Assembly: GCA_027021085.1 (NCBI GenBank)
Contig: JALUVB010000107.1
Location: forward strand, 1 to 26,302
DNA from: a bacterium
GTDB lineage: Bacteria > CAIJMQ01 > JAADFP01
DNA: 26,302 nt
Reading direction: 5' to 3'
Every line of letters starts with the position of its first letter. Position 1 is the stretch's first letter. The translations under genes and the position numbers were made by a program. This document shows positions 1 through 3,174 of the stretch, one piece after another. The notes beneath the pieces were generated by a model, which was not told the DNA's origin, searched no databases, and worked only from the letters and a program-made list of their open reading frames with translations.

Positions 1-1815
1 TTTTTATCCCCTCTTTCTCTCAAAACTTTACCCAGGCACTCTGAAATAGAAGGCTGGGTGGTTTCTCCCCCGCAAAGAAGGGGAAGCGCGTTGAGTTTTT
101 TGTTTCAGGTAGAACGATTTAAAGTGAGGGAGTGGGAGGAAATAAGAAAGAAAGTAAAAGTGAGGGTTTATTTTCCCCTTGCTTATTCTCCCCGGGTAGG
201 GGAGAAATATGTACTAAAAGGCAAATTATCATCCTCTATTCTCCCGCGGGGTAATAAATATCCGCTTTTCACAGTCAAAAAGAGAAAGGATTTTATTTAT
301 AAGGGAGAAAATAACGGTCTTTACGTAAGTTTTTTGCAGGGCTCCTATTATCTCAAAGAAAAATTTAAGCATTTACTCGAACAGGCAATTCCTCCTCCTT
401 ATTCTGATATCTTGAAGGGACTTATCCTGGGAGGAAGAGAGGTGCCTTACCAGCTGCGTGAACTCTTTTTGAAAAGAGGGATTATGCATCTTCTGGCAGT
501 CTCCGGGCTTCATGTGGGAATTGTGGTGTTGCTTTTCTATTCCCTGCTCAGGCTATTTCCCCTGGACCCCAGGCTTCCTCCCCTCGTTTCGGTAATCTTT
601 ACTTTTTTCTACCTTTATGTGGTGGGATTCCCGCCTTCCGGCCTGAGAGCAGGCATCATAGCCGGCGTCTATCTTCTGGGAAAAGTTATAGGGAGGGAGA
701 CAAATTTTTTGAACGTGCTCTCCTTATCCTGTCTGCTGCTTCTTTCTCTAAATCCCAACAATCTTTTCTCTCCCGGTTTTCAGCTTACTTTCCTGATTAC
801 CTTTTTTATTGTCTATCTTTCTCCTTTCCTGGAATCTGAACTTGCCATTAAACCGCTATTTTTAAAACGGGTGGTAACTGTCACTATATTGGCGCAAATT
901 GCTGCTATGCCTCTGGTGGCTTACCATTTCCACTATGTGAGCATATTCGGCTTTTTCTGGAATTTTCTTTTCTTTCCACTGTTACCTCTGCTGCTGGGGG
1001 GCGGGCTGCTTATTCCGCTTTTTACACTGTTGCCGGGAGGTCTGGATAGATTGATTACTTTCCCACTGACCATGATGCTGAAATTTACCCTGCAAAGCCT
1101 GGAAAGAATACGGATGGCAGGATTCTTTTACCCGGTATTTGTTCCCTTAGGAGTAGTTATAATAATCTACCTTTTTTATCTCCTGCTTCCCCGCATGGGC
1201 AGAAGGAGTTGTTTTATCTTTTTGTCCCTTCTCCTGAGTCCTATTATTTCTGCGTTGCCGCAAGTTTCTCTGTATCCGCTGGGGAAGGGATATATTGCGC
1301 TCTTTCCGGAGAAAGGAAAGAATTTTCTCTACATAGCGGTGAAAAGATGGAGGAAGAGCGATGAATCCTACCTTTTGCAATACCTTGCCGGAAAAAGAAT
1401 AGATTACATTGTTCTTTCCCAGGGAAACTGGGAGAATATCCTGGTAGGAGAGATAGTGCGAAGAGGCTGGAAAGTAAAAAATATTTTCCTTCCTCCGGGA
1501 GATTTAATTCCCTATGTAAAAGGTGGTATGAAGGTGCAGGTGATGCGGGGAGAGAGTCCTATTCCGGCAGAAACTCTGCGTTGGGAATATAAGGGGGCTT
1601 CTCTTTTGCTTTACCAGGAAATTCCGGGAGGAGAAGTAATTTTCTCTCCCCGGGAAATAAAGATTGTAAGAGGGAAAATTATTTATCCTGTCACTCCTTA
1701 CCGCTCTAAAAAGAAAGGGTATTCTTTGAATTTATCACGAGAGGGGCTGATATCATTGAGGGTAGATGATGAAAAAGTTTATCTTGCTATTACTCGGCTT
1801 GCTTATTCTTTCTGA
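1..1815 (+). CDS. comEC: ComEC/Rec2 family DNA-uptake channel, 5' end cut by window
   Basis: The reading frame is open from base 1, so the true start lies upstream; the GTG at 58 is internal. The first visible residues (EIEGWVVSPP) fit the end of the N-terminal OB-like DUF4131 region. The competence domain follows, with the family signature HLLAVSGLHVG at about 484-519 and then about eight to ten hydrophobic segments to about 1260. In this family the membrane domain carries single-stranded DNA across the inner membrane in natural transformation. The C-terminal part (about 1260-1812) sits where the metallo-beta-lactamase domain normally lies, but the expected HxHxDH after the 'lDyivlS' strand is absent: the sequence reads IDYIVLSQGNWEN at about 1399-1437. 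The next gene starts inside this one. Identification as ComEC is firm; the loss of metal ligands is read directly; the functional consequence is inferred. Confidence 0.93.
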   Translation, partial: FLSPLSLKTLPRHSEIEGWVVSPPQRRGSALSFLFQVERFKVREWEEIRKKVKVRVYFPLAYSPRVGEKYVLKGKLSSSILPRGNKYPLFTVKKRKDFIYKGENNGLYVSFLQGSYYLKEKFKHLLEQAIPPPYSDILKGLILGGREVPYQLRELFLKRGIMHLLAVSGLHVGIVVLLFYSLLRLFPLDPRLPPLVSVIFTFFYLYVVGFPPSGLRAGIIAGVYLLGKVIGRETNFLNVLSLSCLLLLSLNPNNLFSPGFQLTFLITFFIVYLSPFLESELAIKPLFLKRVVTVTILAQIAAMPLVAYHFHYVSIFGFFWNFLFFPLLPLLLGGGLLIPLFTLLPGGLDRLITFPLTMMLKFTLQSLERIRMAGFFYPVFVPLGVVIIIYLFYLLLPRMGRRSCFIFLSLLLSPIISALPQVSLYPLGKGYIALFPEKGKNFLYIAVKRWRKSDESYLLQYLAGKRIDYIVLSQGNWENILVGEIVRRGWKVKNIFLPPGDLIPYVKGGMKVQVMRGESPIPAETLRWEYKGASLLLYQEIPGGEVIFSPREIKIVRGKIIYPVTPYRSKKKGYSLNLSREGLISLRVDDEKVYLAITRLAYSF

Positions 1816-2734
1816 ATTGCGGGGAGAAGGGATAGAAGTGTTTTTTTCTCCGCACAGAAACCTGGAAGACATTTTGGTAAAAGAAATTAGGGCAGCCAGG
1901 GAAGGGATTACGGGAGCCCTTTACATCGTAAGGGGCAGGGTGGGGGAGGCACTGGTAAAAGCCAGGCGCAGAGGGGTTAAGGTGAAGATTTTAGTGGAGA
2001 GAGACAATATTTATGCTCCTTTTAGTTTCTATCCCAGGCTGCAGAACGAGAACATGGCTATTGTAGATAAGAATAAGGCTCTCATGCATAATAAGTTCCT
2101 GGTAGTGGATAGGGAGAAAGTCTTTACCGGCTCTTACAATCCGGGAGCATCCTCCTATCAATTCAATGATTTAATCTTGCTGGACTCCAGGGAGCTGGCG
2201 AAAAATTATCTCCAGGAATTTAACCATTTAAAAAATTTAAAAACGAGAAAGGGAAGAAAGGGTTATAATAATACGGTGTATGTTTCCGGAGTAAAGGTGG
2301 AGAATTATTTCACGCCGGGCAAGGAGGCTTTTTTCAGGGTAAAGGAGTTAATGGAAGGGGCCAAAGAAAGCATATATTTCTCCCAGTTTTCTTTTACCCA
2401 TAAGGAGCTGGCAGAGTGTATTTTGAGAAAGGCATCAGAAGGAGTGGAGGTTAAGGGAATCGTGGATTATTACGAAGCAAGGCAGTCTTCTCCCTGCCAG
2501 TTGATGGCCCTATCAGGCTTAAGAGTGATAGAGGATAGAAACTATGCTTCCCGCTGGCACAGCAAGTTTATAGTTATTGATGGGAAGATTGTAATTACAG
2601 GCTCACTGAACCTTTCCTACTCAGGCTTCAAGAGGAATAACGAGAATATTCTGGTTATATATTCTCCTGCCATTGCCCGGAAGTACGGAAAGGAGTTTGG
2701 AAAGTATTTTAAGTTATGGGAAGGAAGAATTTAG
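1769..2734 (+). CDS. Exported phospholipase D-like protein with two HKD motifs
   Basis: About 321 residues. Two HxK(x)4D motifs are present, at His107/Lys109/Asp114 and His264/Lys266/Asp271 (numbered from ATG 1769), each followed by a GSxN segment. Two HKD copies form one active site in the PLD superfamily, which includes phospholipases, cardiolipin synthases and nucleases. The N-terminus is Lys-Lys followed by about 14 hydrophobic residues, a signal peptide or anchor, so the protein probably acts outside the cytoplasmic membrane. ATG 1769 is preferred over ATG 1766 because GAGGG at 1758-1762 is 6 nt upstream of it. The gene overlaps comEC by 47 bases and the next gene by 19 bases, implying translational coupling. 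At this size and with a signal sequence it resembles PLD-type nucleases more than the larger cardiolipin synthases, but substrate cannot be read from sequence. Confidence 0.88.
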   Translation: MKKFILLLLGLLILSELRGEGIEVFFSPHRNLEDILVKEIRAAREGITGALYIVRGRVGEALVKARRRGVKVKILVERDNIYAPFSFYPRLQNENMAIVDKNKALMHNKFLVVDREKVFTGSYNPGASSYQFNDLILLDSRELAKNYLQEFNHLKNLKTRKGRKGYNNTVYVSGVKVENYFTPGKEAFFRVKELMEGAKESIYFSQFSFTHKELAECILRKASEGVEVKGIVDYYEARQSSPCQLMALSGLRVIEDRNYASRWHSKFIVIDGKIVITGSLNLSYSGFKRNNENILVIYSPAIARKYGKEFGKYFKLWEGRI

Positions 2735-3174
2735 ACCGGATAAGAATTTACCAGGAAGTACTCAAGGCAGGAAGGCATATAGACCTTAACCTGGAAGGAA
2801 GGAGTATGTTCCCCTTCATTATGCCGGGCGATAAGGCGAAGGTGCGATGGGTGCCTTTAGCCAGGACAAGAATAGGGGAAGTAGTGGTTTTTAGGGGGGG
2901 GCAGGGAAAGCTCGTCTCTCATCGTATAATTTTTAAGAAAGGAGATAAGGTGATAACCAAGGGGGATTTTTCCCCCTGTTGGGATAGAAAGTGGAAGAGC
3001 GAGGATTATCTGGGAAAGTTGGAGGAGTTAAAAGGGAAACGGAACCTACTTTTCCAGCTCTCCCAGGCCTTTTATCCCTTGCCTATTCTCTGGTCTATTT
3101 CTGTTTCTCTGCTTAGTTTCTGGCTGCATCCCTTCTTCCGGTTGTACCTGACGATGAGGGAGAGAAGAAAGTAG
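2716..3174 (+). CDS. S26-type (signal peptidase I-like) serine peptidase
   Basis: 152 residues. GRSMFPFIMPGD at 28-39 matches the catalytic Ser box of S24/S26 peptidases (Ser30). LVSHRII places His69 where the ER/archaeal/SipW-type signal peptidases carry the catalytic His, in contrast to the Lys of ordinary bacterial LepB. ITKGD at 80-84 matches the conserved box that follows. There is no N-terminal membrane anchor; instead a hydrophobic segment lies at about 122-146, so the protein may be tethered by its C-terminus. It overlaps the PLD-like gene by 19 bases and ends the operon. The family cleaves signal peptides or small secreted precursors; the substrate here is unknown. The last bases of the gene, including the stop, form the first unit of a heptamer repeat array. 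Confidence 0.78.
   Translation: MGRKNLDRIRIYQEVLKAGRHIDLNLEGRSMFPFIMPGDKAKVRWVPLARTRIGEVVVFRGGQGKLVSHRIIFKKGDKVITKGDFSPCWDRKWKSEDYLGKLEELKGKRNLLFQLSQAFYPLPILWSISVSLLSFWLHPFFRLYLTMRERRK

Follow-up and report, generated by a model that had tools for sequence, protein, structure and literature searches.

Almost half of all ComEC proteins lack a nuclease domain, and how these handle the non-transforming strand has been called an open question (PMC8579336). The locus described here raises that question in a specific form: a comEC gene whose metallo-beta-lactamase (MBL) domain has lost its metal site runs into a gene for a phospholipase D (PLD)-superfamily protein. Could the second protein do the work of the lost nuclease? 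The window, i.e. the whole stretch of DNA analysed (26,302 nucleotides), is the entire contig C107 of a draft genome, and the features that matter here are the following.

1 to 1815, + strand: comEC, 604 aa, its N-terminus lost at the contig start, with a partial OB fold (DUF4131), the Competence channel domain and a degenerate MBL domain.
1261 to 1812, + strand: the ComEC C-terminal domain, an MBL fold minus its metal site (alignment, structure model, fold match 9ic4).
1417 to 1437, + strand: SQGNWEN, replacing the (S/T)HxHxDH of motif II (alignment; SQSNWEN in the same-genus genome G001).
1766 to 1815, + strand: overlap of the comEC and PLD genes, 50 nt from ATG1766 and 47 nt from ATG1769.
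1766 to 2734, + strand: tandem two-HKD PLD-superfamily protein, apparently exported, 322 aa (PF13091 twice; NucT/Nuc-like; model pLDDT 92.5).
1766 to 1831, + strand: signal-peptide-like N-terminus (MMKKFILLLLGLLILSELRGEG), from sequence, with the hydrophobic N-terminus alike in all relatives.
2087 to 2140, + strand: HKD motif 1 (HNKFLVVDREKVFTGSYN), His108/Lys110/Asp115; His and Lys invariant, and Asp nearly so, in 55 relatives.
2558 to 2611, + strand: HKD motif 2 (HSKFIVIDGKIVITGSLN), His265/Lys267/Asp272; all three invariant in 55 relatives.

Because the contig begins within comEC, the N-terminus of the protein is not recoverable. In what remains, the Competence domain (PF03772) is matched at an E-value of 1.3e-48 (166 bits, Pfam cut-off 23), and the DUF4131 OB fold (PF13567), clipped by the contig end, is partial and below its cut-off (E 8e-6); in the ComEC of G001 it scores above the cut-off (E 7e-11). 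A search of the window genome returned this single ComEC. A split-off MBL elsewhere in the genome was considered and rejected for the window phylum, where a search with a ComEC-MBL profile found only generic MBL proteins (17–26 bits); the window genome itself gave no stand-alone ComEC-type MBL, its best generic match scoring 20 bits.

The C-terminal domain of the window ComEC has 184 aa, against about 255–265 aa in others, some 70–80 residues being missing, and a Pfam search of 1261–1812 returned no match at all, hence no PF00753 Lactamase_B. The initial annotation had placed this domain in the MBL position and proposed a structure prediction as a check; the AlphaFold2 model (pLDDT 83.5, pTM 0.82) indeed has the MBL fold, the closest structure being the ComEC beta-lactamase-like domain 9ic4 (Foldseek E 4e-5; VIA comparison Z 16.0, rmsd 2.7, 176 of 184 residues). 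At the motif II position sits KRIDYIVLSQGNWENIL, which in an alignment against 30 other ComEC C-terminal domains is paired with RIDYLISTHPHTDHL; in the ComEC C-terminal alignment RIDYIVLSQGNWEN falls opposite RIDYLISTHPHTDH. The His-His-Asp-His of motif II has therefore become Gln-Asn-Glu-Asn (THPHTDH to SQGNWEN; QxNxEN), and the alignment shows that further MBL ligands are missing as well, namely the Asp of LIDGG, the Asp of (T)GD and the His of KxxHHG. The loss of HxHxDH to SQGNWEN, as first reported from this sequence, is thus confirmed and extends to every ligand; it recurs in related genomes, and because the same pattern is found there it is not a sequencing artefact. Relative to G001, dN/dS is about 0.22 for the C-terminal domain, 0.14 for the channel part of ComEC and 0.11 for the PLD. 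With a value of about 0.22 the C-terminal domain is constrained, and we therefore regard it as a kept non-catalytic domain and not as debris.

The second gene was likewise described correctly at the outset. The 47-nt overlap is right from the second ATG (1769) and becomes 50 nt from ATG 1766, and the product is an apparently exported PLD-superfamily protein: both HxKx4Dx6GSxN motifs are intact, the two HKD halves lie within one 322-aa chain, and the signal-peptide-like N-terminus predicts export. Beyond it, a signal-peptidase-I-like gene (window 2716–3174) shares 19 nt with the PLD gene; it was not seen in other lineages, and the homologous stretch in the same-genus relative appears frameshifted (L017, about 5038–4573, minus strand).

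Is the arrangement peculiar to this contig? Five of the seven metagenome-assembled genomes sampled from the window phylum have a ComEC, and all five carry the comEC–PLD pair with frames overlapping by 14 to 50 nt (14–47 nt in the genomes other than that of the window); DprA is present in all five. The ComEC of G001 (666 aa) has SQSNWEN at motif II, and those of three genomes from a sister family (G003, G004, G005) are 498–525 aa long and end after the last membrane helix, without any C-terminal domain. In a second phylum (family f77) the pair was found in five of five genomes, with a 22-nt overlap; at the MBL motif these genomes have LNRVSDDHLG, or LNRVSNDHLG in the case of G292, the first His and the second ligand being lost together with the later motifs. 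None of the ten linked loci thus encodes an MBL domain that looks active from its sequence, and three states can be told apart: the domain is degenerate in two lineages (the window genus and the second phylum) and deleted in a third (the sister family). A survey for co-occurrence of a metal-site-less ComEC with this PLD gene, proposed in the initial annotation, accordingly found the two together, always overlapping, in ten of ten ComEC-bearing genomes. The coupling recurs across two phyla, and none of the ten linked loci, when examined for the case named there as contrary evidence, pairs this PLD gene with an intact HxHxDH.

When 290 genomes were searched jointly with the Competence domain and the PLD profile, the matches listed included two further adjacent comEC/PLD pairs outside the window phylum, both in family f77, and no other PLD adjoining comEC. 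When genome contigs were scanned with the PLD alignment (80 loci), ComEC stood beside the PLD only in the window phylum and the second phylum; the rest were mostly from DPANN archaea, plus Chloroflexota, Hydrogenedentota and Aerophobota. Many DPANN archaea (Woesearchaeota, Nanoarchaeota; L091–L170) have a relative of the tandem PLD without ComEC nearby. Viral contigs yielded no ComEC relatives. A single 17-row group of the PLD tree (SH-aLRT 92) contains every linked PLD together with the unlinked Aerophobota-type PLDs, and in the ComEC tree the window and G001 sit, with weak support, on a long branch apart from the other linked ComECs. Identity among the linked PLDs is 31–40%. The genes flanking the pair vary, from signal-peptidase-like in the window genus to a GH5 enzyme or nadD in G003–G005 and a TolB-like propeller in f77; since the neighbours differ between lineages, the comEC–PLD pair is the conserved unit.

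Two of these neighbourhoods contain other genes of potential interest. In the second phylum the TolB-like propeller gene overlaps the PLD gene by ~4 nt (L051:6021–7004, L052:7330–8334, L135:7873–8874), and its product may be a third member of the f77 unit. In G001 a secretin-like (PilQ/GspD) gene, split over two frames, lies downstream of comEC–PLD (L017:2665–4300).

MBL degeneration is common, and MBL loss by itself is therefore not special: the strict MBL motif is kept by 16 of 29 ComECs ranked by channel score only, leaving ~45% without an intact motif, and Lactamase_B has been reported in 52% of ComECs (PMC6299819). Given this background and only two or three independent lineages, the co-occurrence of the PLD with MBL loss is on its own weak statistics; from the 29-ComEC count we estimate the probability of a chance match between PLD linkage and MBL loss, at the base rate, as roughly 0.1–0.2. 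The linkage itself is stronger evidence than this match. No PLD was found beside ~27 other MBL-less ComEC loci, where comEC is followed by an ordinary gene, by nothing or, once (G212), by a separate MBL. In G212 comEC occupies two overlapping genes (L056:3684–6117; 29-nt overlap), the first encoding a channel part of 527 aa and the second an intact ComEC-type MBL of 292 aa, predicted to be exported, with THPHEDH. Thus the slot after a shortened comEC is there used for a nuclease.

Because the pair is conserved and always overlapping, no intact MBL accompanies it, and no PLD occurs at the ~27 other MBL-less loci, the best reading is that comEC and the PLD form a two-protein DNA-uptake unit in which the PLD stands in place of ComEC's MBL nuclease; we think this probable, though far from certain, the nuclease activity of the PLD and the competence of these bacteria being putative. 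ComEC would retain the OB fold and membrane channel, while its own MBL nuclease is dead in the window genus and the second phylum and deleted in the sister family. The exported PLD would most likely work on the outer side of the cytoplasmic membrane, cutting the non-transported strand (or trimming DNA ends) so that a single strand passes ComEC, by an HKD chemistry that would be metal-independent, as in NucT. The dead MBL domain, which is still held by purifying selection, may have a part in guiding DNA or in docking the PLD. We infer this takeover of strand degradation, and with it the export, nuclease activity and strand selectivity of the PLD, its physical contact with ComEC, and competence. 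An intact ComEC MBL has endonuclease and 5'-to-3' exonuclease activity with a preference for ssDNA, and it spares the strand entering 3' end first (PMC12455585); PLD3 and PLD4 are 5' exonucleases on ssDNA (PMC7857491), and NucT, an endonuclease that needs no cations, prefers ssDNA (PMC5714352). These activities match the classes of the MBL and, by analogy, a PLD at the outer face could supply the same kind without Mn. Replacement has evidence against it as well: G180 has an MBL-less ComEC and no detected PLD, and comEC is not a neighbour of the nearest unlinked PLDs, which are Aerophobota-type. If replacement is nevertheless correct, it would be a non-orthologous replacement of the strand-degrading step.

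A bolder version, possible but rather doubtful, would have the PLD belong permanently to the ComEC machine of both phyla, with the dead MBL as its docking platform and as strand guide; where that platform was deleted, the PLD would bind the channel directly. Strand degradation during transformation would in that case have passed from a metal-dependent to a metal-independent enzyme.

The window genome holds two other exported nuclease candidates. One (L176:1486–2364, contig C279), predicted to be exported, joins a staphylococcal-nuclease domain to a ComEA-like helix-hairpin-helix and is a candidate uptake nuclease; the other (L006:1489–2028, contig C16) is an exported single-HKD Nuc/NucT-like PLD whose gene overlaps the 3' end of an ornithine carbamoyltransferase-like gene. 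Their presence counts against replacement and favours a different role: the PLD would scavenge nucleotides as a general nuclease of the periplasm, acting beside or upstream of ComEC without taking over the MBL step, and the nuclease-less ComEC would just displace the second strand. Such a role is also favoured by Helicobacter pylori NucT, which has been implicated in purine salvage and whose loss has only a mild effect on transformation (PMC5714352), a result that itself counts against replacement, and by the fact that almost half of ComECs are without the domain and without a known substitute (PMC8579336). A scavenging enzyme, however, has no obvious need to overlap comEC in two phyla while the other neighbours all change, and we consider this role unlikely, if worth keeping in mind.

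Less probable still is a role for the PLD as a lipid enzyme, either a phospholipase or one of cardiolipin type, that tunes the membrane near the channel, or as an envelope enzyme with no connection to DNA. The folds nearest to the PLD model (pLDDT 92.5) lend this some support: the 5' exonucleases PLD3 and PLD4 top the list (Z 32–33) level with phospholipase D 7e0m (Z 32.7, and first in Foldseek); poxvirus F13 comes next (Z 30–31), then phosphatidylserine synthases and other phospholipases (Z 25–28), with PLD2 also present. With both nucleases and phospholipases in the list, structure leaves the substrate unsettled. Weak NCBIfam matches to cardiolipin synthase models, far under their cut-offs, also fit a lipid enzyme, but at the level of sequence profiles Nuc, Zucchini and NucT are preferred, with E-values many orders of magnitude lower: a PLD profile searched against the PDB gave Nuc at 1e-30, Zucchini at 4e-29, NucT at 2e-16 and phospholipase 7e0m at 3e-5, so that the solved relatives nearest by sequence are endonucleases. 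The best NCBIfam model, NucT, is itself below cut-off (76 bits against 297); judged by this equivalog cut-off the PLD is related to NucT but is no NucT ortholog. The PLD sequence thus favours nucleic acid over lipid as the likely substrate. Conserved basic charge was rejected as a sign of DNA binding, as the PLD pI is 9.4–9.8 in two lineages and 5.8–6.1 in the third. A role in anti-phage defence was also rejected: DrmC/DpdK models match as general PLD relatives, and no defence context was seen at the locus.

Equally improbable is coincidence, i.e. an overlap inherited as a gene arrangement without functional link and an independent decay of the MBL domain, since the high background of MBL loss (our 29-ComEC count; PMC6299819) and the unlinked members of the overall PLD clade, which favour it, are set against a pair retained through deep divergence (the 31–40% PLD identity) while flanking genes changed, and against the lack of such a PLD at the ~27 other MBL-less ComECs.

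Replacement of the MBL nuclease by the PLD has precedents in systems where a separate nuclease works beside a ComEC without an active MBL, namely pneumococcal EndA and H. pylori NucT (PMC8579336, PMC5714352, PMC5031224). In Streptococcus pneumoniae, as here, the metal site of ComEC motif II is substituted (His to Asn and Asp to Glu), and EndA, a separate surface nuclease, degrades the non-transforming strand (PMC8579336, PMC12455585), the part for which the PLD is the candidate here; EndA is, however, a beta-beta-alpha-metal (DRGH) nuclease and not a PLD, and the inactivity of the pneumococcal C-terminal domain is uncertain. H. pylori, like the lineages described here, combines an MBL-less ComEC with an exported PLD-family nuclease, NucT, which prefers ssDNA and for which degradation of the complementary strand has been proposed (PMC5714352, PMC5031224). 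NucT has a single HKD and ~180 aa, whereas the present protein is a tandem two-HKD enzyme encoded by an overlapping gene, and our literature search found no report of an operon link between nucT and comEC in H. pylori, nor any account of comEC sharing an operon with a PLD gene. The intact ComEC beta-lactamase-like domains (Bacillus subtilis, Moorella, 9ic4) share the position and fold of the degenerate domain, in which all metal ligands are missing. PLD3 and PLD4 have the same tandem two-HKD fold at ~17% identity but are eukaryotic lysosomal enzymes, while bacterial Nuc provides the closest sequence profile. A gene-coupled, conserved PLD in lineages that have lost the MBL is a concrete candidate enzyme for strand processing at nuclease-less ComECs, and what is new relative to EndA and NucT is the dedicated PLD partner in an overlapping gene.
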